A DNA stretch of 64,000 bases from Paenibacillus sp. OVF10 (GTDB lineage Bacteria; Bacillota; Bacilli; Paenibacillales; Paenibacillaceae). The translations under genes and the position numbers were made by a program. Under the pieces are notes generated by a model. That model was not told where the DNA came from. It worked only from the letters and a program-made list of their open reading frames with translations, and ran no database searches. Shown here piece by piece: positions 25,683 to 53,936 of this stretch. The number at the start of each line of letters is the position of its first letter. The first letter of the stretch is position 1. The stretch is from the NCBI GenBank assembly GCA_022836915.1, contig CP094668.1:5704001-5768000 (forward strand), read 5' to 3'.

Positions 25683-27381
25683 TCAGCGAATTAAACTTTT
25701 ATCAATAAGTGAATCAGCTGCAACAATAACTTCAATTCTCATATCACTTACGTATTTATTTAAATATCGGATTTTTTTATGAGAATCTTCTTTAACTGAA
25801 GACATAAACGAACCATACATACTCTCGAACCTCATGTACATATACTTCTTTTGATTCTTAACCGTTTTCATACTTGCGACAAAAAAGTTAGATTCATCCG
25901 GATTAAAATAGAATACAAAGAACCATCTTATATATTCATTAAAGGTTACTTTGTGTTCCATTGCTTCAAAATGAGATATAACGCTCTCCTTTGACAACAC
26001 CAACAAGTTTAGTATCCGCTTAACTTCTCTAGGGGTAATGTCTTTAATTTTTGTGATATCATTAATTATTGATATAATTGTAACTTTCTCTTCTGAATCA
26101 AAAAATTCGTCTGCTTAAGAAGTTTTTCTAAAAATGTACTATAATCTGAATGTTCATTTAAATAAACTGGAATTGAAATGTATTTCTGGAGATAATCATG
26201 CCCAAAGCTTAATTTATCATCTCGTGTTGCTTGGTCTTTCAGGAAAAATTGGTTGTTGTTCGCCAATGCTAATGCAACCAATTCTTCATTCATTGAAATG
26301 ACTTTGATAATTGAGTCTGATGATATGAACAATTGAAGTGCAGAAAAAATTCAACGATTGTTTTTTCTGAGCAACGGTCGAGTTCGTCAACAATAAGGAC
26401 AATATTTTCATCTTCTCTCAACCAAATTTTTATTAACTTATCAAGAGAATGTTTTACCTCTTCTCGTGTCCCTAACTTTGCTTTAAAGTCAGGCACAAGA
26501 ATTTGGTGTAACATTTTATTAGATAATGGTTTAATTATGAACATGAGCTTCTTAACGAATGGAACAATGAATTGATAAAAGCTGCCCACCAGTAACGTAG
26601 CTGAAACAAGATACACGTAGAGCTCTGTGTTTTCTATAGTATCGACTAAAGAATCATAGTTGCTAAACCATAATGAGTAAGCCACAGTGCATGCGATTAC
26701 TAACAGGACACTAAATATATACATCCCCTTATTGTTTTTAAATGATGGAAACAGACTGTTCCAAGCAAACTTGATTCGTCCACGAAACTTTGTTTCCGCA
26801 TCATATTTCATATACAATTCTTTTAATATTGAAAACCAAATCATTTTATGATCGTCGTATTCAGTTGGATTAAGCCTAACAATATACGACTTCTTATATT
26901 TGATTTCATGGTTGGGAATGTTTCGATTTATTCTCCGGTTAATCTCATTCAAATTCTTCTCAATTAGACCAACAAATGTAGACTTCCCCGCCCCCATTTT
27001 CCATAGATTCCGATAGCTAAAGGAGCAATCGTCTGTTTATTAGCAATAAGGCGAGCAAGGACATTAGCTTTGGAGTTTCTATCTAATAAATCCACTTCAC
27101 TTTCCTTGTCAATAAGAGCCGCTTCCAGCTCTAAATCGCTAGAGAAATTGGATATTTTGTTTTCATTCTCTTCCTGTATTTCAAGTTTTCTAATTTTTGA
27201 TTTTATAAGATCAGCTTCTCGACTTAGTTCGTCGAGATAAGCGTTTGGATTCTCATTCAGATTCGGCTCTTCATAGTGTTCTTCATCTGGTTCGCCCTGA
27301 AGTTGCCATACTAGATCATTTGTTTTTTTCTTACCTTTTCTAACTCTTCATTCAGAATTCTTTTTTGTCATCTAGACTCAT
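25683..27381 (-). CDS. KAP-family P-loop NTPase, copy 1, several homopolymer frameshifts
   Basis: Restored length about 567 residues, start MSLDDKK at 27381. There is an N-terminal coiled coil of about 130 residues, then Walker A IGIYGKWGAGKSTF, a two-segment membrane insert (MYIFSVLLVIACTVAYSLWF and YVYLVSATLLVGSFYQFIV), then Walker B ENIVLIVDELDRCSEKTIVE. This architecture is the KAP (Kidins220/ARMS/PifA) family. Breaks lie at A runs near 27345 and 27323, a G run near 26993, and T runs near 26345 and 26100. The PifA branch excludes phage. A clear paralogue lies at 36.0-37.8 kb. Confidence 0.85.
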
Positions 27382-27700: not shown

Positions 27701-28351
27701 GATTATCCTTGGTTTTCTAAAAAAAAACGTTGGTTACCATTTGAAAAAATTATGAAGAAGTACCCGGATGGAACGTATGAGGTATGTCATATTGGAATTC
27801 AGAAGGTGCACACAAAGGATATTATCGGACTCGGTTTACGACCAAGAGATATAGCAAATGATAATAAAATGAAACGACTTAGGCAATCCGTGGCTACAAA
27901 GGGTTGGAAAGATGAATCGCCTATAGATTTGCATTTGTATTTAATACCAGAAGGCAAATACACAGTTTGCTCAGGTGGAAATCATCGACCATATCTTGCT
28001 GACAAGTTACACATTCCTTCTATAGAAGCAGCAGTTGATGTGGTTATTCCAAAGGGTAAGATTACTGAAGATACCGCCAAAGCGATCGAGGCGTTAAGAA
28101 GGAATTATCAGATTTTAGAACATGAAGCCAATACATTTAATCACTATTTAAAAACGCAAAGATTTCAACGAAGTGGAAATAATCATGATCATGAGAAAAA
28201 GTTAGATGAAATGTATAATCAATTAACTCAAATCAATATCCAAATAAAATTGCTCCTTAAAACGGAAGCTTACCATCTGGGTTACATACCTAAGGATTGG
28301 TTTTTTCGGACTCATGAAAAAGTGAATAAACGAGAACGAAAAAAGGAATAG
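27701..28351 (+). CDS. ParB/sulfiredoxin-fold protein, N-terminus unresolved
   Basis: From the ATG at 27752 the product is 199 residues. The same frame is open back to 27701 and encodes YPWFSKKKRWLPFEKI, which looks like genuine protein, so the true start is probably just upstream near the AAGGTGG site and hidden by a frame error. The core LGLRPRDIANDNKMKRLRQSV, LIPEGKYTVCSGGNHRPYLA and LHIPSIEA matches ParB-N nuclease-like domains. The C-terminus is helical and basic. No ParA lies nearby, so partition is unlikely. Confidence 0.6.
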   Translation, partial: DYPWFSKKKRWLPFEKIMKKYPDGTYEVCHIGIQKVHTKDIIGLGLRPRDIANDNKMKRLRQSVATKGWKDESPIDLHLYLIPEGKYTVCSGGNHRPYLADKLHIPSIEAAVDVVIPKGKITEDTAKAIEALRRNYQILEHEANTFNHYLKTQRFQRSGNNHDHEKKLDEMYNQLTQINIQIKLLLKTEAYHLGYIPKDWFFRTHEKVNKRERKKE

Positions 28352-28380
28352 GGAACTCAGTTCAATTATATCCTTAAATA

Positions 28381-28407
28381 GAAAAAACTTATTTATCAAG
28401 TTTTTTC
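28381..28407 (+). terminator. Terminator of the ParB-like gene
   Basis: GAAAAAACTT-atttatc-AAGTTTTTTC. Confidence 0.7.
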
Positions 28408-28432
28408 GTTCAAGACACCCACTAAAAACCTA

Positions 28433-28472
28433 CAAATAAGCAGCCGATTATTTTGATCGGCTGCTTATTTGT
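28433..28472. terminator. Bidirectional terminator
   Basis: AAATAAGCAGCCGAT pairs with ATCGGCTGCTTATTT around a 7-base loop, between convergent genes. Confidence 0.85.
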
Positions 28473-28615
28473 ACTTAATGTGCTAATGTTTTGTTAGTTT
28501 AGATGCAATATTCCCCCAGGTGAACTTTCAACACTAATCTTTGATGATGTGAAATGAGAGCACTATCTTATATCTTATATCTAACAGTCAAGACATATTG
28601 TAATCGCTAGAGAAA

Positions 28616-28980
28616 TCAATTACACCCGTAACAATATATTTCTGTTCCAGTTCCATCATCCACAGGCTTAAAGCCTTTTTTGCTCCAAAATGCTTTGCTA
28701 TTAGAATCATTTACATAAACAAAAATTCTGTAATCTGATAAATCCTGAATTGCTTGATTGATAACCTTACTCCCCATCCGTGTTTTTTCTCAAACACTTC
28801 AAATTGCTCTATTTGTATACTGTCATCACCGTACATTCCTTCAGAACAATCAATTAATGCAATCTCTTTATCATTTTCAATTACCTTCATGGGGCAGACC
28901 GACATATACCACCCTAACTCTAAATTAAAGCGTTCTTTATACAATTCAACTTCCTGATCCGTTATACTTATAAATTCCAT
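28616..28980 (-). CDS. GNAT acetyltransferase, one-base frameshift
   Basis: Start MEFISITDQEVELYKERF at 28980. The first part ends in a short beta strand (IQIEQFEVFEKKH). After restoring a base near 28778 it continues MGSKVINQAIQDL and then VNDSNSKAFWSKKGFKPV, the acetyl-CoA loop and C-terminal strand of GNAT enzymes. About 121 residues, at the short end for the family. Substrate unknown. Confidence 0.7.
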
Positions 28981-29094
28981 ATTTCTATTCTCCCTCTGCA
29001 ATGTGATACAACTTTTATTGCTCAAGTCAATATATGGTCTTTATCTCAGAAAGGATTATGAAACTCATCATTAACTCAGTGTGTGTTTGTAAAG

Positions 29095-29691
29095 TTAATT
29101 ACTTTCATTTTCCCATTCCGAAAAATAATTAGAAAGCTCTCTTGCTGAATCATTATCAATATTTCCACTAAGTATTTGATTTAATCTTGCACCTTCCATA
29201 CTGGTATATTGAATTAGCAGTTCTTTGGCTAATCTAGCCGCTTCGATTTCAATTTCTCTTTCCTCGTAATTCAATTGATTTTGAATTTCCATTGTCTCTG
29301 CTGTTATTCTACCTTCTTCAAATTGTTTTATATGTACATATTCATGAGCGATTGCATTGAATACATATATTCTAGAGATTAATTCCATATCATGGGATCT
29401 ATGAATACGATGAGAAAAAACATCATTTATTCTAGCAACTATTGAACTAACATATAACTCAACCCCGTTTATTCTCCTGTATGAAGAAGTTAACAATAAA
29501 GCTCCAAAGGTATCTTGTACTATATAACCACCATCGCCTTCTTGATAAACGTTTGGAACAATTGGATATTGATCTATTGTACCCTCAATATTCAGTTCAG
29601 TTCGCACGAATAAAACAAAATCATTAACAATCTCACTTTCAATTATTTCGTTTATTAACATTTCATTTATGTAATTTCCTAAGAACGCCAT
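29095..29691 (-). CDS. Zincin-like putative metallopeptidase
   Basis: 198 residues from MAFLGNYINEML at 29691, which has AGGAAG upstream; a longer reading to 29760 has no site. The motif AIAHEYVHIKQFEEG is an HExxH zinc site, and the downstream EREIEIEAARLAKELL could give the third ligand. No signal peptide, so probably cytoplasmic, like ImmA-type proteases. ImmA proteins often regulate mobile-element genes through a repressor, but no such partner is adjacent. Family assignment is by motif only. Confidence 0.65.
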   Translation of the reverse strand: MAFLGNYINEMLINEIIESEIVNDFVLFVRTELNIEGTIDQYPIVPNVYQEGDGGYIVQDTFGALLLTSSYRRINGVELYVSSIVARINDVFSHRIHRSHDMELISRIYVFNAIAHEYVHIKQFEEGRITAETMEIQNQLNYEEREIEIEAARLAKELLIQYTSMEGARLNQILSGNIDNDSARELSNYFSEWENESN

Positions 29692-29859
29692 AAATATCTT
29701 CCTTTCAAATGTTTTTTGTCTATTATAGAATTTTTGGACAAACATCCAATAAAATTTCACTTTACTATTATATACGCTTTACTAATATTTAATTGAACAA
29801 ATCCTGCAATAGCCCATTAGAAATTTTTCAAAGGATATAATAGTACATGGAATAAAAAA

Positions 29860-29935
29860 ATGGGGCTGAAGTGTGTATGTATTGAAGGCTTGCCAGGAGT
29901 GGGAAAAACCGAGCTGGTTCCCGTTTGTGCCAGAT
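29860..29935 (+). pseudogene. 5' fragment of a P-loop kinase-like gene
   Basis: About 22-24 codons read MGLKCVCIEGLPGVGKTELV, a good Walker A motif, with a TATAAT about 20 bases before the start. The similarity stops abruptly and the following plus-strand reading is unrelated. Looks like the stump of a nucleoside-kinase-type gene cut by a recombination event. Confidence 0.5.
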
Positions 29936-29945
29936 ATCATTCCAT

Positions 29946-30530
29946 TTATATATTTTTTATACTAAATTTATTCATTTCAGGTTTCTTATTCCATGATCTA
30001 CCATGTTTTGGATTCCCACTCCCGTTCAATCCACCAACACAGAAAATTTTTGTTTTATTTGAGAGCAACATCTCTTTCAGTTTCTTTTTGCGCTCTTTAA
30101 TAGTAGACTCATCTACTCCTTTGCAATCACCATAAGCAAGTATAATTATATTTACTTTCTCTAAAACCTGTTTAATCCAAAGATCATTCTCTATTTTGTT
30201 TAAGATATCATTTGACTTCCCACTCAAATTAGATGGATTATTGTCAACATAAGACCACAGATTTAAGCAATGAACAACATCAAATTCTCGCATTCCGCAC
30301 CAACAAAGCACTTTTCCAATTGTGGAATCCGCTTTCCAGTGTCCTTGTGTAGTAATATCCGTCCAATTTGTGGAAGATCCATTCATTTGAATCACTGCGA
30401 CACTTTTTTTATTTGTTTTCTTTTTATTTTTAAGGCGAAATTCCAGTCCATAACGGTGATTTCCTAAAACATATATATAACCTTTTGGTTCTACATGAAC
30501 TAAATTATATAATTTTCTAGCTTTAGACAA
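29946..30530 (-). CDS. DUF1643-family protein
   Basis: 194 residues. The pattern AVIQMNGSSTNWTDITTQG, DVVHCLNLWSYVDNNPSNL, IIILAYGDCKG and VGGLNGSGNPKHG follows the DUF1643 order (NPS.a.., vvNLf.., aWG.., G.P.HP). The family is common in defence islands and on mobile elements; its activity is not established. The Arg/Lys-rich N-terminus suggests nucleic-acid contact. Start ATG at 30530. Confidence 0.7.
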   Translation of the reverse strand: MSKARKLYNLVHVEPKGYIYVLGNHRYGLEFRLKNKKKTNKKSVAVIQMNGSSTNWTDITTQGHWKADSTIGKVLCWCGMREFDVVHCLNLWSYVDNNPSNLSGKSNDILNKIENDLWIKQVLEKVNIIILAYGDCKGVDESTIKERKKKLKEMLLSNKTKIFCVGGLNGSGNPKHGRSWNKKPEMNKFSIKNI

Positions 30531-30608
30531 ATCTACTCCCCTTAATTGTTTTACCTAATAAGTAGTTGAACTATGTATTAAAAACGTGTTTCATTACCAA
30601 CCATCGCT

Positions 30609-30636
30609 AAAGGCACCTATTTAGCAGGTGCCTTTA
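30609..30636 (-). terminator. Terminator of the histone-fold operon
   Basis: AAAGGCACCT-atttagc-AGGTGCCTTT, ending at the stop codon of the membrane gene. Confidence 0.8.
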
Positions 30637-31881
30637 ATCTTCATATTCCCTATTTTTTCTTCTTACATATTTTTTGATTCTGCGATCCCAAGAAAAAACC
30701 CACAAACGCAATTGAGGGAAAATTCCGAAAAATATGAGAACTAGAAGCGATAAGACGCTGATTGATATATGTGTAATAAACCAAGCCTTACTTTGAGGGA
30801 AATTTTTCAGAGCCGAGTTATTTATGAAGATTAACTTAAGTGATGCATAAGCAGACAATATAACTGTAATAATGATAGGCACGATTTTAATTACTTCATT
30901 AATTAAAGATGCTTTAACTTTTTGAGTTAATATGCGGTGCTTAGCTGCCTTTTTATCAATCCATATTTGTAAATGATTTAAATGATATGATAACTTACTA
31001 TCTAAAGATTTTATACCGTTCTGAAAGGAGTGCATTTCAACACGATCTCCATTTATAACTTGGAACACTTTTTTGTTTTCGGTTTCATTTATGAAACAGT
31101 CTTTGATTATACTTTCAGGAAATAAGTATTCTATACTTTCAGGTCGAAATAATTCTTGTTGGTTAATTCGGATATAACCAAGCTCCCCTAAATACATACC
31201 TATTAGTCTATATACTTCCTCTCGGTAGTTTTTCTCTAAGTCGGAGGGAATGTTTATATAAGCATATAACTTAGATATAATTGGCTTGCTGTGTTCATTC
31301 AACCAATTAAAAAATCTGACTGCAGCAGACTGCTCTTGCAGAGGTACTGACCACATTATATAGTTTTGCTCTTTAATGGGTAGTTCTCCAATAAAAGATA
31401 CGTATATTGAATCAAATTGACCTTGTTGGTAATCTGAATCTTCTATATCTTTAACAATCAAGTTAATCTTAACTGTGTCCATACCAATATCTATTGGAAA
31501 GTGATAGTAATCAGATTGTCTTTCCATTTTGTTGAGGTCATCCGGTTGTAATGTTTTCCCTGAGCTGTGATAGATGGTTACCATCCAACACAATACAAGC
31601 GCCTTAGTATCAATTGTTCCTACGAGCAATTTTGTTTTTTCCACACGTTCATTTTCATTTTCATCTATGACGATTTCAGTCTTTTCCATTTCCTGCTCAT
31701 TCAAAATCCCCTTAACGCGAAGTGGTTCTAAAGCATCTCGAGGCTCAATTTTCATCAATTGAGTCCAAGGAGTTTTCAACGATGAAATATCTCGAAACTG
31801 TTGATGTTTTCCAAATTCATTCAAAATATTGTCGAGAAATTCTATTTCTGATTTCGACAATATAAAATCATCAATAAACAT
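30634..31881 (-). CDS. Membrane protein of the histone-fold operon
   Basis: I place the start at 31881 (MFIDDFILSKSEIEF), 1 base after the upstream stop and 6 bases after AAGGATG. About 415 residues, with a soluble N-terminal region of about 320 and two C-terminal membrane segments (VIKIVPIIITVILSAYASL and ISISVLSLLVLIFFGIF), then a basic cytoplasmic tail. No known domain. Third gene of a tightly packed operon with the 462-aa protein and the histone-fold protein, so it may anchor that complex to the membrane. Confidence 0.7.
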   Translation of the reverse strand: MFIDDFILSKSEIEFLDNILNEFGKHQQFRDISSLKTPWTQLMKIEPRDALEPLRVKGILNEQEMEKTEIVIDENENERVEKTKLLVGTIDTKALVLCWMVTIYHSSGKTLQPDDLNKMERQSDYYHFPIDIGMDTVKINLIVKDIEDSDYQQGQFDSIYVSFIGELPIKEQNYIMWSVPLQEQSAAVRFFNWLNEHSKPIISKLYAYINIPSDLEKNYREEVYRLIGMYLGELGYIRINQQELFRPESIEYLFPESIIKDCFINETENKKVFQVINGDRVEMHSFQNGIKSLDSKLSYHLNHLQIWIDKKAAKHRILTQKVKASLINEVIKIVPIIITVILSAYASLKLIFINNSALKNFPQSKAWFITHISISVLSLLVLIFFGIFPQLRLWVFSWDRRIKKYVRRKNREYED

Positions 31882-31882
31882 A

Positions 31883-33271
31883 CTATTCATCCTTCTGAAG
31901 ATGCTCGTATTGACCAATTAAATCCACTGCATCTCCGGTTGATTGGGCAGCTAAATACTGCAAAATCTGAACAGTTTTCCGTGCAATAGTCTCGCTTTTT
32001 GAACGATTCATTCTTTTAATTACTGTAAAGTAGTTTGTGTAGTAAGCATATAAGTTGGAGTAATTACTGGAAGATGATTGTAAAAATTCATCAGGCACGG
32101 TCTTCTTCTCATCATTCAATAAATATCCAATATTAAATATCACTGTGCTAACCAACTTAATTTCCCGGTGATCCATTGGCTTTCCTCTGTACTCATTCAC
32201 TACTCTCGATAAGTCATCTTTTATTGCCGTAACTCTTTTTGTGCGATGCGAAGGTAATGCTGCGGGAGAAATTTTTTTATATAGAGCTTCTATTTGAGTC
32301 GACATATCTTTATAATATTTTTCGGACAATACAACCCATTCAATATCCAAAATAATCCTATCCAGTACATCCGGTAGGACAAAGGTATCAATAATTAACT
32401 TACCATCCTCGGATATTTTTAAATTCACTCGGTGACCTTCCACTACACAAGTTGTGTTAAGTTCACTAATTGTAAGTGAGTCATTGCTTTGTATGGACTT
32501 CACCAAAGGATTCTCATAATTTATTTCATTAAGCCCGTGAATGATAAATCGAAGATCATCATCAGATCGATATCTTGGGGAGGACACGAGACCCTTTAAT
32601 CTTAATTGAATCATAATCAATTGAGCCTCGTCTAATAATATCTCTTCAATCTTTGGATCGTATGGTATAAAAAGTAGATAAATTACTTTAACTAATTCCT
32701 TGGACTGCCGGGTTGTACCATTTGGATTAAAAAGCGCTATAATTCCAGAGCCGAAATAGTAGCGTGCTTCAACGTATTCTGCATTAATTTCCCTAATAGG
32801 CACTGGTTCGTGTACAATTATTGAGTCTTCTATACGAAATTTTAAATCAAGATATGCTTCTCTATATGCTACTTCTTCAATAAATAAATCATATTTCAAG
32901 TTTGGATTGAAACTATCTATTTCAGTTATATTTCGGTTAATTAAACTGTTAATACGACTTCGAATTTCGTCAGTTACTGTTAAAGGAGCTACCTTAGATC
33001 GATAAAGCTTTATATTCATTCTATCCCCTTTACGTCCGTATTCATCAAACACTGGTCGTATAACGGTATGTAAACGATCAATATCTAGTTGATATGCCTG
33101 AGATAAACCTGTGTAGCAATTACTTTTATTCGCCTCCACGTTTTCAGTATCATCCTCGTCTAAACTATTAGCGTATTCTTTGAATACAGAAATAAAATCT
33201 GGAGCATATATTCGTTCATACATGTCTTTCACTGAATATTCTGATCGGAAGAAAAACGTTCTGGATGACAT
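31883..33271 (-). CDS. Uncharacterised 462-aa protein of the histone-fold operon
   Basis: Intact, start MSSRTFFFRSEYSVKDM with GGAGG upstream, 3 bases after the histone-fold gene. A soluble, mixed alpha/beta protein with no signal peptide or membrane segment, and no motif I recognise. The region NGTTRQSKELVKVIYLLFIP and the C-terminal helical part (NEYRGKPMDHREIKLVSTV) are notable for charge. Its stop abuts the membrane-protein gene, so the three are surely cotranslated. Confidence 0.7.
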   Translation of the reverse strand: MSSRTFFFRSEYSVKDMYERIYAPDFISVFKEYANSLDEDDTENVEANKSNCYTGLSQAYQLDIDRLHTVIRPVFDEYGRKGDRMNIKLYRSKVAPLTVTDEIRSRINSLINRNITEIDSFNPNLKYDLFIEEVAYREAYLDLKFRIEDSIIVHEPVPIREINAEYVEARYYFGSGIIALFNPNGTTRQSKELVKVIYLLFIPYDPKIEEILLDEAQLIMIQLRLKGLVSSPRYRSDDDLRFIIHGLNEINYENPLVKSIQSNDSLTISELNTTCVVEGHRVNLKISEDGKLIIDTFVLPDVLDRIILDIEWVVLSEKYYKDMSTQIEALYKKISPAALPSHRTKRVTAIKDDLSRVVNEYRGKPMDHREIKLVSTVIFNIGYLLNDEKKTVPDEFLQSSSSNYSNLYAYYTNYFTVIKRMNRSKSETIARKTVQILQYLAAQSTGDAVDLIGQYEHLQKDE

Positions 33272-33274
33272 TTT

Positions 33275-33664
33275 TTAAACCTCCATATGCCGCACCAAAG
33301 AGGCTTGAGCGACAATTTTTAATTGCTCCTTTTGGTTATCTAATTCAAGGATGATCTTATCTATGAATTCATGTGGTTGCATCAATTCTTCATAAGCGGT
33401 TTGCAAATCAGAATCATAGATTGTCGACCGCCCCTGACTTGCACATACCTCTTCAGCTCGTTTCACTAGCATGATTGTTATTTGTTCTAATTGTGCCATT
33501 AACATATCCTTAGCACCATTAGTTACTCGCGATGATGTTTTTGTACGAACAAATTTTGAAAGAGTTCCTTTACGGGATACCCGAATTGCCCCATCATCAT
33601 CTTCATGTTCGAACTCCTCTTCATCTAACGATTGAAATTCTTCTGCCTCAACGTTATATGCCAT
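33275..33664 (-). CDS. Histone-fold protein with acidic N-terminal tail
   Basis: 129 residues, ATG at 33664 after AAAGGGGAG. Residues about 1-40 are acidic (EEFEHEDDDGAIRV). Residues about 50-97 read SRVTNGAKDMLMAQLEQITI, a long helix MLVKRAEEVCASQG, then RSTIYDSDLQTAYEELM. This aligns with the archaeal histone pattern RVSDDA....L...LE, A..LA...GRKTI and DI..A, including the loop-2 motif GR.TI..xDL. A C-terminal helix follows. Founding gene of the operon; basic DNA-binding residues look sparse, so dimerisation or scaffold use is as likely as DNA wrapping. Confidence 0.7.
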   Translation of the reverse strand: MAYNVEAEEFQSLDEEEFEHEDDDGAIRVSRKGTLSKFVRTKTSSRVTNGAKDMLMAQLEQITIMLVKRAEEVCASQGRSTIYDSDLQTAYEELMQPHEFIDKIILELDNQKEQLKIVAQASLVRHMEV

Positions 33665-33976
33665 TAATATACTCCCCTTTCAATTGACTTCTCGTATGCT
33701 ACAAACAATTGATATGTTAAGCAAATATGATATTTTAAATTATATCAGATCTGCTATTTTCCAACAATATCCTGCCTAAGCCAATATATTTCATATGATT
33801 AACAGAACCGTTTAGCTAGCAATCAAATCATCTTTGCTAGTTGAGTTGTTCATATTTATCAGCAAGAAGATATTAACTTGATAGTAGTATTCAACTCGTT
33901 TTATGATAGCATCAGGTTAAATCATCAAACAAAGTCAAAAAATTCTGAATATTACAAAATACTTAGGAGGTAATAT
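33665..33976. other. Divergent promoter region between the histone-fold operon and the GmrSD-like gene
   Basis: AT-rich, no gene. Ribosome-binding sites lie at both edges; I see no clear operator. Confidence 0.5.
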
Positions 33977-35716
33977 ATGAAAGCCGAAGCACGATCGCTT
34001 ACTTTCCTGGCAAATGAAGGGGAGGTTAAGATTCCATTCTTCCAACGTGCATATGTATGGGACAAAACTAATTGGGAAGAGCTCATTTCCGAGCTATTGC
34101 AAAGTAGCAAAAGTCACTTCTTGGGATCGCTGATTCTTAAACAAATAGAAATACAAAGTGGAAGTACAAAGCAAGTACTCGTAATTGACGGGCAACAGCG
34201 TCTAACAACTTTGAGTATTCTTCTTCGAGCGCTATTCGACAGTTTTGACACATTTTTGCAGGAAAAGTGTCAGCAAGATGGAAAATTTGACGCTTGTCTT
34301 TTCTACAAAAAAGATATGTTTGATGATGACCTACTCGTTAAGATTGAACATTCCAAAATTGATAAAAAGTATTATCAACAGGTTATTAGAGGCGAGATTG
34401 TAGCAGATACTATCGACTTACATACTTGCAACAGCAATATCCTGAAATGTTATATATTCTTCGTTAATAGACTTGTTAATGTCTCACTCAAAGATCGGCA
34501 AACACTTTTCAACGACTTACTGAGCTCTACTAACAGTATTCTGGTTGTTATTGACCTAACAGAAGATGATGATGAACAAGCAATTTTTGATACAATTAAT
34601 AGCGCAGGCATGCGTCTGAGCAGTGCCGACATTGTAAAAAATGTCCTCTTCCAGCGGGCGTTTGAGCTACTCGGTAACCAAGAAGATGTAGAAACTTTAT
34701 ACCAGGATTCTTGGGAATCTGTATTCGCAAACGATGAACAATCGATTACATTCTGGGATACGGCTCGCTCAACTGGACGTATGATGCGTGACAATATTGA
34801 ATTATTACTTCACTCCATTGCTGTGATAGAAGGCTTCTTCGATCCCGAGAAACACTCCTTGTCTGATCTCTCTAACATATATAAAGAGCATATTAGAAGG
34901 CTTGATAAGAATGAGTTAACAAAGTTTATAAGAACCATTTCAGAATTTGCTAAACTTTACAGAGAGAAAATTATCGTATTTGAAAATAGCGACTTATTTG
35001 GCTTCACAGATTATAACAAACGACTCTTCCATGTTCTTAATGTTTGTGATGTATCTACGTTCCATCCTTATATTCTTTTCCTATATCGCAAGTATGAGGG
35101 CAACGAAACTGAACTTGCAGTGTCACTGAAAAAGTTAGAGACACTCGTTATACGCAGAACAGTTTGCAAATTAGAAACGAAAAATTACAACAAGCTATGT
35201 AAAGAATTAATTTCGGATTCCTCTAAAATAGATATTCTATTAGCAGAAGTGACCGATAATGATGTAAGTAACGGGCTGATGTCCATCAGTAATAAGCACG
35301 CAGCACTATTGTTATTTTGGGTCGAGTTGTTCCGGCGTAAGAACGACAAACGCTATGATAGAGATGAGTTAAAATACACTTACACTTTAGAGCACCTACT
35401 CCCTCAGAAGTGGGAAGAGCATTGGAGAAATGTGCCGATCATCGACGAGAACGGACAATCGATAAAAGATTGGGAAGAAGCCAAGAAATATCGTCATAAG
35501 CTCATCTACAGTATAGGTAACATGACTTTGTTAAAGAGTTCACTTAACTCATCACTTCGTAATTATGAATTCCAACGTAAAGTTGAAGGTGAAGGACGAA
35601 AGCGCGGGATCAAGCATTATGCTGAATTGGGCATAACCAAGTTGGACATAGTCACCAATTATGAATCGGGGATCACACGTGGAACGAATTCAAAATACGA
35701 GAGAGAACTAAGCTAA
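33977..35716 (+). CDS. GmrSD-like DUF262/DUF1524 restriction nuclease
   Basis: 579 residues, intact, AGGAGG before the ATG. The N-terminal DUF262 (ParB-fold) shows IPFFQRAYVWDKTNW and then LVIDGQQRLTTLSILL. The C-terminal DUF1524 HNH domain shows YTYTLEHLLPQKWEEHW and YSIGNMTLLKSSLN. A single fused protein of this design is a type IV, modification-dependent restriction enzyme in the GmrSD/BrxU group, cutting glucosylated or otherwise modified phage DNA. Usual size 550-700. It is monocistronic, with its own terminator. Confidence 0.88.
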   Translation: MKAEARSLTFLANEGEVKIPFFQRAYVWDKTNWEELISELLQSSKSHFLGSLILKQIEIQSGSTKQVLVIDGQQRLTTLSILLRALFDSFDTFLQEKCQQDGKFDACLFYKKDMFDDDLLVKIEHSKIDKKYYQQVIRGEIVADTIDLHTCNSNILKCYIFFVNRLVNVSLKDRQTLFNDLLSSTNSILVVIDLTEDDDEQAIFDTINSAGMRLSSADIVKNVLFQRAFELLGNQEDVETLYQDSWESVFANDEQSITFWDTARSTGRMMRDNIELLLHSIAVIEGFFDPEKHSLSDLSNIYKEHIRRLDKNELTKFIRTISEFAKLYREKIIVFENSDLFGFTDYNKRLFHVLNVCDVSTFHPYILFLYRKYEGNETELAVSLKKLETLVIRRTVCKLETKNYNKLCKELISDSSKIDILLAEVTDNDVSNGLMSISNKHAALLLFWVELFRRKNDKRYDRDELKYTYTLEHLLPQKWEEHWRNVPIIDENGQSIKDWEEAKKYRHKLIYSIGNMTLLKSSLNSSLRNYEFQRKVEGEGRKRGIKHYAELGITKLDIVTNYESGITRGTNSKYERELS

Positions 35717-36037
35717 TCACAGATGATGTGCTTAAAATCTGGACTATCGTATAGAAGCTATACTTTTACACTTTTATAATAGGTTATCTCTGTAGTTCCA
35801 GAGATAACCTATTATACTTATACGTGATGTATTAGCTACTTTAATAAATACATTCGTCATCTAAAATTAACTTTACCTGTCCTTCCATAACCTCGCTTGT
35901 TTTCAACAAAGTGAAGGAAACGTCTATCGCATCTTACCTGGTTCAGTTTCTGGAATAGAATATTTTGTTTGTTTTACTGAAGAGAAGATCCAAATTACTA
36001 TCACTTTCATGACTCAATTCAATGCAAACGCGTCAGC
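35717..36037. other. Intergenic region with one terminator
   Basis: No gene seen. It holds the hairpin at 35776-35815; the rest is AT-rich sequence between convergent genes. Confidence 0.5.
35776..35815 (+). terminator. Terminator of the GmrSD-like gene
   Basis: ATAATAGGTTATCTCT pairs perfectly with AGAGATAACCTATTAT around an 8-base loop. Confidence 0.8.
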
Positions 36038-37760
36038 TTAACTATTTACTTTTCCCATCGAAAAACTATTCAACATCAGTTCGGCTAGCAAAATACCATC
36101 TACTCGCATATCTTCAACAAATTCAAGAAGTATTAATTCTTTTCGATTATTTAATTCGGCTATGAAATTCGGAAGAATAATTTTAACTATTTGATGTTTG
36201 TTCCTTAATTGCGCGAGTAAGAGATTATTATAGAATAAATTTACATCTTTGGGATTGAAATAAGTAAATAGAAACCACCTTGTATATTCCTCAAAAGTTA
36301 TCTTTAGCTTGTATTTTTTACTTTCTATTGCGACTTTCTCTTTTGAGAATATCAGAAGGTTTATAATTTTCTTTATTTCTCGAGGCGTTAGTCGCCTTTT
36401 GTTAGCCGCAATTGAAAACATTTCAATGATCAAAGTCTTTTCTTTAGTTGAGAAAAATCCATTTCTTTCGTTTAGTGTAACCTCTATTAATGATTTATAC
36501 GATTGATTAATCGAAAGAAAGACAGATACATTAATGTATTTTTCTAAATAGTCATAACCGAATTGTATTCTTTCCTCTTTTGATGGCTGATATGACTCAA
36601 AATGAAAATTGTATTTACTGGCTAGTGCTAATGCTACTGTCTCGCTATTCATCGAAATAACATTTACAATGCCCTTAACAGATATAAATAGTTGTAAAGC
36701 TGAGAAAAATTCAACAATTGTTTTTTCAGAACATCTGTCTAATTCATCAACAAGTATTACAATCTTCTCATCCTCTTTTAACCAAACTTTCAAAAGATCA
36801 TTGAGAGATTCCTTAACTTCTTCCCTTACACCAAGTTTCAGTTTATATTTTGGCAATAGTATATGATCCAAAATTTTTGCTGAAAGAGGCTTAGTAAACA
36901 AGCTAATTTTTTTAATATGGGAATCACTACTTTGACAGTAGCAAATACAGCGAGAGACATTGATAAAATACTTTTCCAATAACCACTATTCTTGATTCCC
37001 TCAATTAAAGATTGATTCATACCAAAGTAGTGTATGGATAGAATGACAACAATACAAATCATTAACACATTATTAAGATATTTAGGCAATTCATTTTTTA
37101 ATGAAGGCAAAACATCTCTTAATGCATACTTGATCCTTCCTGTAATTTTGTGTTCTTTTTCATATTTCACATATAACTCTTTTAACAGTGAATACCATAT
37201 TTTATTTTGATCATCATATTCAGTAGGATTAAACTTAATCAAATATGTTTTATTATACTTCTCTTGAAAATCTTCTTTTTCTTCTTCGATAAGTTTATTT
37301 ATTTGCGAGAGCTGTTTTTCAATGAAACCTAAAAATGTGCTTTTACCAGCCCCCATTGCCCCGATATCCCTACTGTAATTGGGGAAGATGTGTGTTTGTT
37401 TGCTATCATCTGACTTATTATGATTGCCTGTGGTTCACGTGATAACAAATCATTATCACTCTCACTATCACTAACTATTGCTGATGAACTTGGTACAAAT
37501 CCCGCAAAATAATTTCTCTTCACTTCGTTTTCTTTTTCTAAATCCATAGCTCTTAATTCCGCTTCAACGTCACGAATCTTACTTTGAACTACCTCTAGTC
37601 TAAATTCAGGTTTTTTAATTTCATCTTCATAATGAGAGTAATCGTCATAATCATACGGATCACCATGAATTTCAAAGAATAGTTCATCTTCTTCTCTATT
37701 TAAATTTCTTAACTCATTTTCTTTTTCTTCTCTAACATTGTTGGCAGTATCATTTGGCAT
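36038..37760 (-). CDS. KAP-family P-loop NTPase, copy 2, two frameshifts
   Basis: Start MPNDTANNVREEK at 37760 (GGAGAG upstream). About 574 residues after adding one G at the G5 run near 37355 and one A near 36905. It has a coiled-coil N-terminus, Walker A VGISGQWGAGKSTFLGF, two membrane segments, Walker B EKIVILVDELDRCSEKTIVE, and an AAA lid-like C-terminus containing TPREIKKIINLLI. Clear paralogue of the 25.7-27.4 kb gene along its whole length, including FNPTEYDD and the Walker B block. Confidence 0.85.
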
Positions 37761-37851
37761 ACTTACTCTCCGCATTCAAATTTATTTTTAATACTATGGC
37801 TTTATTCATTATGTTCACTTTAAGAAACTAAAAAAATCAACTAAGAAAATT

Positions 37852-40810
37852 TCAAGTATTCCTTGTTGTGCGACAATGTGGAAAGTTTGTACATCCATAA
37901 AATTGTGCCCCGCTTCTGTTACTTCGCACCACCATATACCCCTTACATGTTCCACAACGAACCTGATTCTTGATAATCCTTATATCGCTATATGTACGAC
38001 GACATCCTGGGTGATTGCTGCACCCCAGAAATGTCTTGCCGCCCTTACCCTTACGCTCTACAAGAATGCCTGTATTACAAGTCAAACACTTCGGATTAGA
38101 GGCAATTGAGGTCTGACTTCCAGATAAAATAAGAGGTACCTTATAATCCTTAATTAATTCATTCACAAATACAGATTTTTCACGCTCTGGTACAACAATA
38201 AATAGTTCGTTTTCAGTTCGTGTCAAAGCGACATAAAACAAGCGCCTTTCTTCCGCAAATGCTAAAGAGTCAGGTGCTGTTAATACCCATTGAAGGACAG
38301 GATCATCTGACATACGATTCGGAAATCCCAACACAGCATTTCGACCATTAATTACAATCACATTATGGGCTTCTAATCCCTTAGATTTATGTACAGACAT
38401 GAAACTAAGCTGAAGAGATGGATATTTCTCGGATTTTATCAGATGCTTATTTATATCTACATTAAAGCCGTGATGACCATCCAGTTGTTTGATATCCATA
38501 TTGTTTCTTCCCAGTAACATGATAGTACTATTGACTCCGTATTTTTGGACAATACCTTCAATGATCGCATCAACTACATCTCCCATGTTATCTGAGAATG
38601 AATGTATTTTGATTGGCTGCGGAGTTGATTTGGAAGATTTGAGTTTTTTAGTCAGTTGCTTTTTATTTCGCATCACAAACTGACCGGCAATGTCTATGAG
38701 CTCTTGCGAGTTTCTGTAGGTTCGCTCAATTCTCATAGTTTCATAAGCGCCAAAATACTCCCCAAATCGTGTAAACAAATCTAGATCGCTGCCTGCAAAG
38801 CGATAAATGGACTGCCAGTCGTCTCCTACACACATAACCTTTGCACCGGTTTTATCTTTAATCGCCTTTACAAGTCCGAATCTACTTTTCGAAATATCCT
38901 GGTATTCATCAATGATGATATATCTATAATTGAAGTTTGATTCCGGCAAGCGAGCAATTCTGGTCGCTTCGTTAATCATATCGTTAAAATCAATTTTTCG
39001 TTCTTTAGCTATAGATACTTGGTAAAATTCATAAATAGGACGAACAATTTCAAAAAATAATTCCGTGCGTTTACGAAGAAAAGGGTTATTTTCGGATACA
39101 CGGTTTTCATGCTTTAAACGATCAAAATCAGTGCCGGAATACCCGCTCGATTTGAATAAATTGATAAAACTGCAAATCAGTTTTACAAACTCTTCAAACT
39201 GCTGATTATTCTGTCTCGAGCAAAGAAGCTCATACAAGTCAAGTGCATTAATTTCATTAAATTCAACACCATGTTCTTGTAAATTTTCACTTAGTTTTGA
39301 AAGCAACATGCCATCTTTATTGTAATAAGAAAAGGATTCAATGCATATTGTACCTTTCTCGGCATGCAGCCCTCGTTTCCAATGAACACCTTGAATATAT
39401 TTCTTCTCTTCAATCCCTTTTAACCAGGGAGCCCTCATCTGCTCAGTGACACCAAAATGCTCCAGATAAAGTCCATATTTAGTTAAATAAAAATCAGGTT
39501 GATATTGTCGAAACTCTTTCGTTGCAGTGTCATACTCATATTTTTTTCATATTCGTACTCAACCCCGTTTAAAAACAAAAAATTTGCAATCATGATCTCT
39601 TCTAAACTCTTCATCGTCTCACCTTTTAAGGTCTGGTGAGTACTATTCATACGTTGTAATTTGCTCTTTAAAGATTCAAAATCAAGTCCTCGCTGTGATT
39701 CATGATATTCACCTAGCGTTTCAAATTCCGAGCGGTCGCGTGGAATGTTAAAATAAACTCCAAAAAATTGAACAATATGTTGAAGTAACGCTGGTCTCGT
39801 TAAAATCTCACGGTCAAAGAAAGTTTGCACATAAGGTCTAAGCTCGTCGCTTATGCTTTGTTTGATGTTAACATGTTTTGCTATGATTCCATTGCCTAGC
39901 TTATGGAATGTTTTCACATCTACATTTACATGTAGTTTCTTGGAAATTCGTTCCTGCATCTCTCCAGCTGCTTTATTGGTAAATGAGATTAGAAGGATTT
40001 CCTCCGGTCTGACTTTTTTAATCTGAGTCAAGAATTTAACTTTGCCAGCGATTGTGAGTGTCTTTCCACTTCCTGCGCCAGCTAAAACTAAGTTGTTATC
40101 CTCATCGGTCAGAACAGCAATTCGTTGCTGCTCATCTAGTGATTTACCATCAATATCGTCAAAAAATGATGAATGAGTTTGAAGGTTAGCTCGTATGTAT
40201 TCCTTATTCCATAAGGAAAATTGAGCATCCTTATCGCTGAATATATCTTTAAACCCTTTTTGATGTGCACTAAGCTCATCTTCACCTGCTTGACGAAAAA
40301 ACAATACACTTCTTCATATTCTTTTGTAAAATGTAGTTTCTGAGAGTTCGTTATGTAATCTTGCTTAAACTGCCCAAGTTTACTAAGAGCATAATTAATT
40401 TTTTTGTTATATTTTGAGTTATGTGCCTGAATAATCTGTAATTGCTCCAGCGTACTTATATAGACTTGATACGATTCTTGTTGAACTCGCTCATAAAGCT
40501 GAACTATAGTCTTGTATTTAGAAGTTTTTAGCACCCATTTACTTAGTTTATTAAACTCTTGTTTTATTTTTTTGTGGACTTCAAAGGGATCTCCCTGATC
40601 TAAATAAACCTTATTTTGCATATAGCGATCGATAAATTGTTTGTGTTCTTTCTGGGATATAAATGCAGTACTTTTATCAAAAGTGTTCACTAATCTATTA
40701 GCTATTTTTACGGAACCATCTAGTGATTCAAGATATGTCTGTGTGCGATTCAATAATTTGTTTATCCTTGATTTATAAATCAGTCCCTTGAGGGTTTGGA
40801 GTATATGCAT
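37852..40810 (-). CDS. UvrD/Rep-type superfamily 1 helicase with topoisomerase zinc ribbons, two frameshifts
   Basis: About 986 residues when one A is added near 39545 and one T near 40300. A helical N-terminal region of about 220 residues is followed by Walker A LVLAGAGSGKTLTIAGK, motif II IIIDEYQDIS, motif III VGDDWQSIYRF, motif V SFMSVHKSKGLEAHNVI and motif VI YVALTRTENELFIV. Two C4 ribbons of the topoisomerase type close the protein (CLTCNTGILV and CGTCKGYMVV with GCSNHPGC and GCTNFPHC). This domain set is known in helicase IV-like proteins of defence islands. Confidence 0.9.
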
Positions 40811-40907
40811 GGCTGGTTCCCTTTCATGTTATATGTTCTTTAAGTTTACCACACCTTTCAAAACAAAATAAACGGCAGACCCTGTCTACCGTTCACTATA
40901 TAATTTT

Positions 40908-41279
40908 TCAACCTTCAAATTCCAATTCATCTTCAACTTGCTTTCCTTGTTCATCAGATATCGTTCTCAGTGATTTTCCAGTTTGAATATGCTCCCAACG
41001 ATCCGCACCTGCTCCAGGATGTCTGCCCATTACCATCGCAGCGCTTCCGCTTAAGCTAAAAGAAATGTCACTTAATACTACATAGAAGTTATTTCTCAAA
41101 ACAATCTTACCCTCTTTCAGCAAAACAGCACGTTGGTTAGCAATAAACCCTGACTTCACTTCATTAGCTGCCAATTGTGAACCAGGTTTTATTGTAATAT
41201 GCATACGTTCAGTGCTGGCATCCGGATTAAATTCAGCAAGCGCGAAACCATTCTTTTTCGGATCATACAGACGATACAT
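40908..41279 (-). CDS. DUF4357-domain protein
   Basis: 123 residues, AGGAGG before the ATG at 41279. The C-terminal half reads FYVVLSDISFSLSGSAAMVM, then GADRWEHIQTGKSL, matching the DUF4357 pattern F.F.SPSAAA..lG...NG...W....G.SL. DUF4357 is often attached to restriction or defence proteins as an accessory domain. Here it is a small independent protein upstream of the helicase gene. Confidence 0.7.
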   Translation of the reverse strand: MYRLYDPKKNGFALAEFNPDASTERMHITIKPGSQLAANEVKSGFIANQRAVLLKEGKIVLRNNFYVVLSDISFSLSGSAAMVMGRHPGAGADRWEHIQTGKSLRTISDEQGKQVEDELEFEG

Positions 41280-41313
41280 TAGCCGATTCCTCCTAATTAA
41301 ATTTCAGTCTTTA

Positions 41314-41654
41314 TCATGGTTGATACTTATTTTCTTCCCAATTAAACACACTCAGCAGAAGAGTCAGTGCCATTTTACGATCCACCTCGGTTCGTGTACT
41401 CAGCAACTCCACAATATGTGCTATATCGTCCTTGTGGTCCATTGGATCAATATAACGGAATAACTCATCTAACGTAATTCCTAGACCGTGTGATATCTTT
41501 TCTAAGCTCTCCACCGTGACGTTTTTTCTCCCCGTTCGACAGCACCAAGATAGTTAGTATGTAAACCAGCCCGCTCCGCTAATACCTCTTGACTAAGCCC
41601 TTGTTCCTTACGAATAAAACGAATTCGTTCTCCCAGTTTTTGAACCAGATTCAT
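41314..41654 (-). CDS. Xre-family HTH repressor, one-base frameshift
   Basis: The start at 41654 reads MNLVQKLGERIRFIRKEQGL, the HTH is SQEVLAERAGLHTNYLGAVE, and then ERGEKNVTVESLEKISHGLG. One A must be added near 41520-41526; restored length 113. Typical SinR/HigA-like DNA-binding domain with a short helical C-terminus. It is divergent from the secreted-protein gene at 41805, and three TAACAC half-sites lie between them, so it probably regulates both. Confidence 0.82.
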
Positions 41655-41707
41655 TTATCCTTCACCGCCCTCTTTATGACAAGCTTAATAGAGGGAAGGT
41701 TTTACAT

Positions 41708-41752
41708 TAACACTCTATAAGTGTTACTTGACTATTTTATAACACTTATAGA
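41708..41752. promoter_or_regulatory. Candidate operator with repeated TAACAC half-sites
   Basis: The 13-bp repeat TCTATAAGTGTTA (41714-41726) is mirrored exactly by TAACACTTATAGA (41740-41752) with 13 bases between. Another TAACAC at 41708 forms TAACAC-N7-GTGTTA. Located between the divergent Xre gene and the secreted-protein gene, the expected place for a repressor site. Confidence 0.6.
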
Positions 41753-41804
41753 TAATGTAAGCTGTGGATTACATTATCTTATTCATAGGGAGATGGTCAT
41801 TGAA

Positions 41805-42554
41805 ATGAAAAAGAACAAATTAACAAAGCTCAAGTATTTGTGCAGTGGTATCATTTTGGGGAGTGTGCTATTTACAGGAGTTTCGTACGCAGCTACAACA
41901 GCCAATATCGGGGTCAGTTTTTTACCGCTAAAATTCTTCGTAGACGGCGTGGAGAAACGTATGCCGGAAGGTCAACAAGGGTTTGTGTATAAGGGAGCAA
42001 CGTATGTGCCTCTCCGCTTTGTTTCAGAATCTCTTGGTAAGAGCGTAGGCTACGATGCTCCATCCTACTCGGTATATGTCGGTAAGCCTAAAGAAGGCAC
42101 TGTCACCTACCTTGAACAAATGAAAACTCATGCCTCTAATAACCAAGGTTCCAAAACCGTGGACACCTTTACAACCAATTTGGGAACCCAGTTCAATCAC
42201 GGCATTTATCTTACAGGTTCCGCTTTTGGTGGTAGTGATTCGACTGGGTATGGTTACGGTAAAGCGAACTATGTCGTAAATACATATCTTTTAGATGGCA
42301 ATTACAAAACCTTTGAAGCCTTCCTGGCTCCGTCCTCTAAATGGAACACCCTCGCCAAGAATGATAATCTCGGTAGTTTAAAAATCTATGCGGATGACAA
42401 ACTCGTTTACACAAGTGGCGCTGTTGCTTCAGATCTTAAAGCTCCCATTAACATCAATGTTGACTTAACTGGTGTTTTAAACTTGAAAGTGGAATTCAAA
42501 CAAAACCAAGAAGACAGCGAATTAGGACTTCTAGAAGCTAAATTCATTCAATAA
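41805..42554 (+). CDS. Secreted protein with copper-amine-oxidase N-terminal-type stalk domain and NPCBM-like domain
   Basis: 249 residues from MKKNKLTKLKYLCSGIIL, a signal peptide ending ...VSYAA. The first domain (LPLKFFVDGVEKR, YKGATYVPLRFVSESLGKSV) is the Paenibacillus surface stalk domain. The second (YGYGKANYVVNTYLLDGNYK, TFEAFLAP, and ADDKLVYTSG) resembles NPCBM/galactose-binding modules of cell-surface proteins. Probably extracellular or wall-associated. Not obviously a defence gene. Confidence 0.8.
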   Translation: MKKNKLTKLKYLCSGIILGSVLFTGVSYAATTANIGVSFLPLKFFVDGVEKRMPEGQQGFVYKGATYVPLRFVSESLGKSVGYDAPSYSVYVGKPKEGTVTYLEQMKTHASNNQGSKTVDTFTTNLGTQFNHGIYLTGSAFGGSDSTGYGYGKANYVVNTYLLDGNYKTFEAFLAPSSKWNTLAKNDNLGSLKIYADDKLVYTSGAVASDLKAPININVDLTGVLNLKVEFKQNQEDSELGLLEAKFIQ

Positions 42555-42578
42555 GACTCTCGTGTATTCAAATAAAGA

Positions 42579-42617
42579 AGGAGCTCTATTCCAATGAAGC
42601 GGAATAGAGCTCTTTTT
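42579..42617 (+). terminator. Terminator of the secreted-protein gene
   Basis: GAGCTCTATTCC pairs with GGAATAGAGCTC, followed by TTTTTA. Confidence 0.9.
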
Positions 42618-42770
42618 ACTTTTATATGTTCCTATCGTCTGCTAGACGAAATGAAATACCTTACCTGACTTACATGAAAGCCATTGCCTCATAAAATGTG
42701 TAGAGCAAAGGAATTTTTGAGAATCGCTTTCTTCAATCAACAAACCTAGTTACCATCATTGCAAACATTT

Positions 42771-48142: not shown

Positions 48143-49068
48143 TTATTCAGCTTGCTTCCTCAGCAAGTGTACGTCTCTCATCGCGAATGGATTTAATTCC
48201 TTACCATCATTAATGTGACTGATGCGCTCGTAGGCTCTTGCCAAATCGCCCAGCTCAATACGTTCTGCATTTCGAGACAGAGCGTTTTTAGCAGCTTGAC
48301 GAAGTAGTAACATGATGGAGTGCATAGCTCCGTTCGTCGCGTACATGAATCGTTCACAGCACTCTTCATCCGCTAAATTGGAGGTCGACTCAAAAACCGT
48401 TGTTATCTTTTTATCAAGTTCAAACATCAGACGCTGAAACTCGGTACGATCCTCTTCCGTTTCCAAACTGAACGGTCGGATCTCTTCTCGAATTACCCGG
48501 CGGTTGAGCTGAGGATTCAGGTCAAGGACTTCCGTTGCTTCGCTTAGCCCAAAAATATAACCGGTATCTGGGTTTGAACCATAAGTGATTTAAACCAATC
48601 CGTCACCCCTAACATAACTTTGCGGCGATCACGATCTACGAAATGCTGAAACTCATCGAGCATAATTAACTCAACACGATTTTTTCGGATCAATTTGATT
48701 AAGCGATCTCCTTTCTGTGCAACAGTCCCTTTATTGGGATACGGATCTTTCAGTTCCTGAAGCAGACGTTCTGTTAGTATCGTGTACTTGACTGGGGAAG
48801 GAAGGCTCAAGTGAAGAATATTTTGAGTCGAATAACGTATGCCCTCAACGACATCGCTGCTCACATGCATGTGTCTACCAATATACGTTTTGAGTAACGT
48901 TGTCTTTCCACTACCTGTATCCCCATGGATAAGAAGGGAACTTGGGGCATCGGAATATAGAGATTCCTGGTGAATCTCTTCAATTGCATCCATTGCCTTT
49001 TTGAATCTTGGATGAATCACCCGAATGCTATCTATAAATTTAAGCTTGTCATGATCAATGGTTTTCAT
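48143..49068 (-). CDS. tnsC: TnsC/TniB-like AAA+ transposition regulator, one-base frameshift
   Basis: 308 residues after adding one G near 48546-48550. Walker A LLIHGDTGSGKTTLLKTYIG and Walker B VELIMLDEFQHFVDRD are clear, followed by the sensor region IPVIFLG and then the lid LSEATEVLDLNPQLNRRVI. The length fits TniB rather than the longer TnsC of Tn7. It would link target choice by TniQ to the transposase. The start overlaps tnsB by 4 bases. Confidence 0.88.
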
Positions 49069-51018: not shown

Positions 51019-51021
51019 GTT

Positions 51022-52615: not shown

Positions 52616-52753
52616 CGTAACCCTCCTACTATATTCATATGTGGAAAAATTATGACTGATGTTGGGACACATCTGATTGCTTTCCACAAATTAATCATAG
52701 TCTCGGAACCGACTTTTTCGACTTTTGAATTTTTATTATATTTTTACCAATAC

Positions 52754-52784
52754 AAAAAAAAGGCGCTAAAACAGCGCCTTTTGA
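52754..52784 (-). terminator. Terminator of the Xre gene
   Basis: On the minus strand AAGGCGCT-gttt-AGCGCCTT followed by TTTTTT. Confidence 0.9.
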
Positions 52785-52804
52785 TGTTTTCAGTTAAGCA
52801 GTTC

Positions 52805-53690: not shown

Positions 53691-53912
53691 AAGTCGCCCT
53701 CCAATATGATAGTTAATTCAAGTTTTAACGAAATAACTTATGTAATTACATCAATTTAAAAATTAAAAAGATGGTCACTTACATTATCAATAACATCCAT
53801 AATAGAAAAAGATGTAAGTCTCTCATATTTGTGGATTAGCTATTTTTATATATTTCTATCCTCTTATTTTAATTTTATACATATAAAACAGGTTACATCA
53901 GTGTTTATAAAC

Positions 53913-53936
53913 AAAAAGATCTCTTAACAGAGATCT
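53913..53936 (-). terminator. Terminator of the second tniQ gene
   Basis: On the minus strand AGATCTCT-gtta-AGAGATCT... followed by TTTTTG. It overlaps the stop codon. Confidence 0.75.

Follow-up and report, generated by a model that had tools for sequence, protein, structure and literature searches.

A histone-led operon of the published RdgC histone type in a modular Paenibacillus defence island

Introduction

This study concerns a three-gene operon in a window of 64,000 nucleotides from Paenibacillus sp. OVF10 (CP094668.1, positions 5,704,001-5,768,000 of the forward strand); positions given below are window-based. Its genes encode a histone-fold protein, a protein of 462 amino acids (aa) and a membrane protein. 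The operon is a member of a type already in print, the 'RdgC histone' operon of certain Bacillus and Halobacteria, which comprises a histone, an RdgC-like protein and a transmembrane protein (Schwab et al. 2024, PMC11390915), and is not a new gene set. What our analysis adds is its placement in a modular Paenibacillus defence island that also carries GmrSD, KAP NTPases and Tni genes, and its recent movement between species under purifying selection. What is a histone doing in such company? The passages of PMC11390915 on the RdgC histone operon assign it no function, and neither 'defence' nor 'defense' occurs in the paper's wording. In the literature searched, 'RdgC histone' is used as a term by Schwab et al. 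alone, and no publication joining histone-fold, defense system, phage and transmembrane turned up; preprints lay outside the scope of that search, and later work may exist.

Results and Discussion

The operon and its immediate surroundings

Three intact, densely spaced minus-strand open reading frames (ORFs) run from 33664 to 30634 in the ORF listing of the window. The locus comprises the following features:

33275..33664, minus strand: gene 1, histone-fold protein, 129 aa
31883..33271, minus strand: gene 2, 462 aa, homologue of the haloarchaeal second gene, without a membrane-like stretch
30634..31881, minus strand: gene 3, membrane protein, 415 aa from an ATG 1 base past gene 2
30609..30635, minus strand: 9-bp perfect inverted repeat (30609-30617 with 30627-30635), overlapping the gene 3 stop codon
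33665..33976, no strand: intergenic region between the divergent operon and GmrSD gene, expected site of the operon promoter
33977..35716, plus strand: GmrSD-type restriction enzyme, a neighbour outside the unit, adjoining the operon in both Paenibacillus genomes
29946..30530, minus strand: DUF1643 protein, a neighbour outside the unit, downstream of the operon in both Paenibacillus genomes

Gene 3 has an alternative start, a TTG at 31917 that is open, gives 427 aa and overlaps gene 2 (30634..31917). We prefer the ATG at 31881 because the products of three haloarchaeal relatives (L007, L009 and L011) start near the matching place. With this start the intergenic gaps are 3 bases and 1 base, as an earlier note on this DNA had described them, and the three-gene unit that it proposed holds. 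The defence-island setting that it saw is supported, and the restriction enzyme beside the unit is confirmed as GmrSD. The helix 2/loop 2 motif that it saw in the 129-aa protein, GR.TI...D, is present as GRSTIYDSD; its histone-fold first gene is upheld at the level of sequence by matches to PF00808 and to a haloarchaeal operon-histone profile, and its membrane protein by two strong C-terminal hydrophobic stretches in gene 3. A common terminator, which the note had also proposed, was not confirmed. The 9-bp repeat at the gene 3 stop is without a T run and escaped the terminator scan, so that a shared operon terminator at this place is no more than possible. The promoter scan called no minus-strand promoter in 33665..33976.

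The note had further held that this was a candidate for an undescribed system and that no known system couples a histone-fold protein to a membrane protein. Both statements give way to Schwab et al. 2024 (PMC11390915), whose operon type was already in print and makes that coupling. As in the window, the published operon has the histone first, a second gene (there RdgC-like) and a transmembrane protein third; it occurs in Bacillus-type bacteria and haloarchaea (Haloferax volcanii is reported as one carrier), with sequences of low similarity and a C-terminal extension on the histone. This likeness is set by description, the Bacillus copy lying outside the sequences compared. Unlike the operon as published, the window copy has a Paenibacillus host, stands in a defence island with Tni genes and bears the marks of recent interspecies transfer, and the second gene of Natronomonas gomsonensis is split in two ORFs.

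Relatives in Paenibacillus and haloarchaea

Gene 2 was found in two of 394 Paenibacillaceae genomes, the window's own included, and in one of 398 Bacilli genomes, again its own. The second copy lies in Paenibacillus polysaccharolyticus BL9 (L002), where gene 2 was found by peptide patterns and is 97% identical. In 72,556 plasmid records no match to gene 2 or gene 3 of Paenibacillus was found. The haloarchaeal copies were reached through gene 1, which weakly matched two haloarchaeal plasmids (E 0.01 and 0.2). Gene 2 of one of these plasmids led to five, from Natronomonas gomsonensis, Halorussus aquaticus, Haloterrigena salifodinae, Haladaptatus halobius and Halobaculum roseum. Plasmid matches to Escherichia albertii (E 5) and Rhizobium (E 0.9, 25% cover) were dropped as chance. 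Searches with gene 2 gave no match in 50,697 phage records and no relative in viral contigs. The Bacillus copy of Schwab et al. was also sought: the rRNA signature used to look for it was exact in 0 of 398 genomes, and two guessed related groups (of two genomes and one genome) held no match.

Gene order is identical in all seven loci (the window and six others, with gene 2 split in one), and the gene triple for which the note had advised a search recurs in six of six loci outside the window. In all five haloarchaeal loci the first two genes overlap by 8-11 bases; genes 2 and 3 overlap in three of them and are separated by 35 and 94 bases in the other two. When ORFs of at least 80 codons were compared across the seven loci, using positions 20001-52000 of the window, only genes 1 and 2 linked all seven, and gene 3 linked the five haloarchaeal loci. 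Neither neighbour of the Paenibacillus operon belongs to the unit: DUF1643 as a fourth gene and a GmrSD-linked two-enzyme system were both rejected, as each neighbour is unmatched in the loci from haloarchaea. Three of these loci have small ORFs downstream, which were also considered as a fourth gene and show no significant mutual similarity. The Natronomonas gomsonensis gene 2 (L007, 12311-13782) consists of two ORFs that overlap by 4 bases and meet at profile positions 216/217, which may reflect a frameshift or a gene naturally divided between two domains.

The histone and its partners

Residues 41-90 of gene 1 match Pfam CBFD_NFYB_HMF (PF00808) at 22.6 bits, above the curated cutoff of 21.4. 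In a control, three of 398 Bacilli genomes gave PF00808 matches, and the two beyond gene 1 were rejected as chance frames, one antisense and one with stops; because of these, the score by itself is weak. A profile of the five haloarchaeal operon histones finds gene 1 at E 1.8e-17 among 268 window ORFs, with the next match at 0.035, and this match is the decisive evidence, as far as sequence comparison goes, for the identity of gene 1 as a histone. Aligned by hhalign, the Paenibacillus and haloarchaeal gene 1 profiles reach probability 97.2, E 3e-11 and a score of 65.4, the best of 40 column shuffles scoring 16.5. PF00808 matches every one of the seven operon histones at E <= 1, and the score of the window protein exceeds the curated cutoff. 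For gene 2, the haloarchaeal profile finds the window protein at E 1.4e-17, and hhalign gives probability 97.9 and E 3.4e-13 over 358 columns, far above 40 shuffles (based on four haloarchaeal sequences, without the split one of Natronomonas). These profile matches show genes 1 and 2 of Paenibacillus to be homologues of their haloarchaeal counterparts.

In gene 1, an acidic tail at the N terminus (residues 1-29, charge -11) is followed by a histone fold at about 32-95 and a C-terminal extension of about 34 aa. The core (30-95) has a charge of +2 and the whole protein a net -11; this is a net -11 histone outside halophiles, with nearly all of the charge in the N-terminal tail, which is possibly autoinhibitory or partner-binding. 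With archaeal nucleosomal histones (PF00808) the protein shares the histone fold and the GR.TI...D motif of helix 2/loop 2. Unlike them, it has an acidic N-terminal tail, a C-terminal extension and fixed operon partners, and it is rare. We reject an ordinary nucleosomal histone on acidity, rarity and fixed partners.

In gene 3, about 320 residues precede hydrophobic stretches at about 322-354 and 365-398, which are followed by a basic tail. A marginal hydrophobic stretch at 85-103 is seen in both Paenibacillus proteins. All seven members have two C-terminal hydrophobic regions, and the gene stands third in all seven loci. The gene 2 profile found no match below E 0.35 among PDB sequences.

Transfer and conservation of the operon

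The operon lies in a chromosome-sized single contig of 7.24 Mb (genome completeness 89.42). At the DNA level, window positions 29915-35757 are 94% identical to L002, a block made up of GmrSD, the operon and DUF1643, while the flanking modules on both sides diverge more. We compared 37 window ORFs with P. polysaccharolyticus. Synonymous divergence (dS) between the two Paenibacillus is 0.106, 0.115 and 0.160 for genes 1-3. Nine genes of the left flank, reaching to a competence-type gene at 21117, have a counterpart, and their dS ranges from 0.63 to saturated; five further left-flank ORFs have no counterpart found. Fifteen other shared genes have dS of 0.025 to 0.53, two matches are distant, and three ORFs in 27752-45584 are without a counterpart. 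Set against the left flank, the low dS of the operon shows that the island crossed species recently. The ratio of nonsynonymous to synonymous divergence (dN/dS) is 0.093, 0.117 and 0.162 for genes 1-3, so purifying selection has preserved all three proteins, in an assembly where several neighbours look broken.

The copy in a moving defence island and the purifying selection on its three genes together yield a concrete and testable hypothesis: immunity may have co-opted a histone.

A RexAB-like device with a histone?

The histone fold, the RdgC-like partner known from the literature and the membrane protein point to DNA sensing and membrane action, and from them and the setting we infer a role in defence. 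We tentatively favour, with a probability of about 0.48, a RexAB-like abortive-infection device with an added histone, in which the histone and the RdgC-like protein would sense DNA and the membrane protein would be the effector. The constant gene order, the homology of genes 1 and 2 across the two domains, the purifying selection, the recent transfer and the defence-type neighbours speak for it. We propose such a device because the published systems that we found to pair an RdgC-fold DNA binder with a membrane protein are of the RexAB types. RexA has the structure of RdgC and binds DNA, and RexB is a membrane protein with four predicted helices (PMC11077077). Pseudomonas putida RexAB brings about a growth stop with membrane damage, and the data suggest abortive infection (PMC12894663); that paper compares its RexA with lambda RexA and leaves RdgC unmentioned. 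By the literature, the operon and RexAB would share an RdgC-fold DNA binder encoded beside a membrane protein, as sensor and membrane effector (PMC11077077, PMC12894663).

How might it work? The histone, probably as a tetramer held by its C-terminal helix, and a ring or clamp of the RdgC-like protein would assemble on DNA; in RdgC histones this helix is predicted to form a tetrameric coiled-coil bundle (PMC11390915). Their complex would mark or sense abnormal DNA, be it plasmid DNA entering the cell or an intermediate of phage replication or recombination. Once loaded, it would touch the soluble part of the gene 3 protein, whose two-helix membrane hairpin would then oligomerise or open, harm the membrane and halt growth before the invader matures. 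That this holds as an immune device in both bacteria and haloarchaea, with a histone tetramer and an RdgC-fold clamp detecting invading DNA and triggering a two-helix membrane effector, is doubtful. Since the eukaryotic kinetochore likewise pairs an RdgC fold with a histone (CENP-N/L on CENP-A), such a device might descend from, or merely parallel, the parts out of which that complex arose. If it were true, histones would join the components of prokaryotic immunity, and the pairing of a histone with an RdgC fold would bear on the origin of kinetochore parts.

The operon is not itself a RexAB member, because helix number and genomic setting differ. RexAB resides in prophages, often by a CI-like repressor, and the operon is flanked by GmrSD and DUF1643. 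It further differs in having three genes, not two, in the added histone, in the lack of a repressor alongside and in that no sequence similarity between gene 2 and RexA was detected.

Several points weigh against a RexAB-like device. RexB, an inner-membrane protein with four predicted helices, is smaller than the 415-aa gene 3 protein, whose two main membrane stretches follow some 320 residues. Depolarisation was not detected with activated P. putida RexB (PMC12894663), and in RexA mutants DNA binding and exclusion are uncorrelated (PMC11077077). Compared by profile, gene 2 scored 17.6 against RdgC (29 sequences) and 15.6 against RexA (4), within the range of shuffled decoys (best of 30: 22.7 and 19.8), in a test that is insensitive because its positive control, RexA against RdgC, also went undetected. 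AlphaFold2 models of gene 2 and gene 3, each built on two near-identical sequences (window and L002), were unusable, with mean predicted local distance difference test (pLDDT) values of 37.2 and 37.4. Gene 3 is weakly matched between Paenibacillus and haloarchaea (profile E 0.46; hhalign probability 6.4 in a collinear alignment, 28.4 against a best shuffle of 26.0), and because this similarity is not enough, its family membership rests on position and topology. None of the operon proteins has a match in PADLOC-DB 2.0.0 (0 families each at E <= 1). The family is rare among the genomes searched (2/394 Paenibacillaceae). The defence-type neighbours are counted with no background rate, and the 13 haloarchaeal neighbours compared with PADLOC (six matched, seven unmatched) were chosen by annotation from 121 annotated features in five stretches. 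Lastly, three of the five haloarchaeal loci have a Cdc6-lid match close to the operon, at 2.4, 3.6 and 2.4 kb.

These Cdc6-lid distances favour replicon maintenance, in which the histone and the RdgC-like protein would coat or clamp DNA near the origin of a plasmid or island and the membrane protein would tether it, as a centromere-like complex aiding partition or replication. All five haloarchaeal copies are on plasmids, a ParA gene adjoins the L008 operon, and the proximity to Cdc6 has a combined p of 0.011 over the five loci under random placement. This alternative is attractive because the RdgC fold also underlies CENP-N/L (Chl4/Iml3), inner-kinetochore proteins that bind the centromeric histone (PMC4080450). 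By the literature, an RdgC-like fold acts with a histone on DNA there, as it would in the operon; CENP-N and CENP-L are eukaryotic and work without a membrane protein, and the parallel is one of description at the level of fold. The plasmid location, however, is a sampling effect, because the collections searched for haloarchaea were those of plasmids, phages and viruses. Nor are the loci as independent as the p value would have them: L007 and L011 have a run of backbone genes in common, and at least an ArdC-type gene of theirs recurs in L008 and L009. In L009 and L010 the Cdc6-lid match is 29.6 and 17.6 kb away. The Paenibacillus copy, moreover, sits in a chromosome-sized contig, and no replication or partition genes were recognised among the island ORFs scanned, a weak match to a ParB helix-turn-helix (HTH) at 27752-28351 falling below the cutoff. 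We consider replicon maintenance unlikely.

Could the operon instead organise DNA? As a chromatin-type silencer or recombination modulator, the histone would bridge island DNA, the RdgC-like protein would limit RecA and the membrane protein would merely position the complex. Schwab et al. compare RdgC histones with DNA-bridging coiled-coil histones, and RdgC is thought to modulate RecA (PMC11390915). Against this, the same paper calls RdgC histone expression low, with a rank among the top 14 to 37%. The histone of the window is acidic, a general organiser would hardly be expected in just two of 394 family genomes, and the constant membrane partner would go unexplained; such a role is improbable. 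Bridging would equally suit a defence that spares the membrane, with the complex compacting or sequestering phage or plasmid DNA there and the cell unharmed. The same genomic evidence serves this alternative, and nothing in the data separates DNA trapping from abortive infection; we think it scarcely probable. The likeness of the gene 3 hairpin to two-helix effectors is one of topology only, and the PycTM protein found near the L009 operon is a neighbour, not a relative.

The Paenibacillus island

Other features of the island, beyond the block that holds the operon, are:

25683-26997: KAP pieces, with an intact counterpart in L002, a 567-aa KAP protein
36038-36979: KAP-type NTPase piece, matching QatA and PDC-S20 models
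37852-40304: UvrD-type helicase in two ORFs
43148-45584: AAA_5 protein (PDC-M26A-like) adjoining a DUF2357 protein
48544-55751: TniB, TniA-type integrase and TniQ, frameshifted in appearance

The KAP NTPases and the UvrD-type helicase occur as adjacent ORF pieces (25683-26997, 36038-37775 and 37852-40304), and the C end of GmrSD differs; these broken neighbours reflect either decay or assembly indels. The DUF2357 protein had no PADLOC match. We would call its pairing with the AAA_5 protein McrBC-like.

P. polysaccharolyticus holds the same island with partly other modules, namely LmuA-like, CAP12/Pycsar TIR, FRG and QatA-like proteins. There (L053, 411-8688), ORFs of 308 aa and 651 aa replace the TniB and integrase pieces of the window, and beyond them lie ORFs of 552 aa and 609 aa, the latter matching the TniQ of the window. 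A Tn7-like module (TniB/TniA/TniQ) stands beside the defence island, its corresponding ORFs being longer in P. polysaccharolyticus. Defence genes against mobile genetic elements are reported to be enriched in Tn7-like cargo (Benler et al., PMC8649781). Around the Tni genes of the window no convincing terminal repeats were found, and because the ends of the element are lacking, the status of the operon as Tn7-like cargo is unproven. A PHROGs scan of 10 window proteins left the operon proteins unmatched and gave no virion, lysis or packaging family; it placed a repressor-type HTH 19 kb from the operon, by the Tni genes.

The haloarchaeal neighbours

PADLOC-type neighbours occur in three of the five haloarchaeal loci (L007, L009 and L011). 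The neighbours recorded were:

L007: helicase (C3a139, DrmD and other models) and type IIG/DrmMI-like methylase
L008: HicAB and PIN genes, and the ParA gene adjoining the operon (by annotation)
L009, 4043-6313: two PycC cyclases and PycTM
L011: type IIG-like methylase

The PADLOC misses among the 13 fell in L007 and L008 (one protein each), in L009 (three, an annotated HEPN protein included) and in L010 (both of those tested). The genes at 4043-6313 of L009 form a Pycsar-type set on a haloarchaeal plasmid, that is, an archaeal one.

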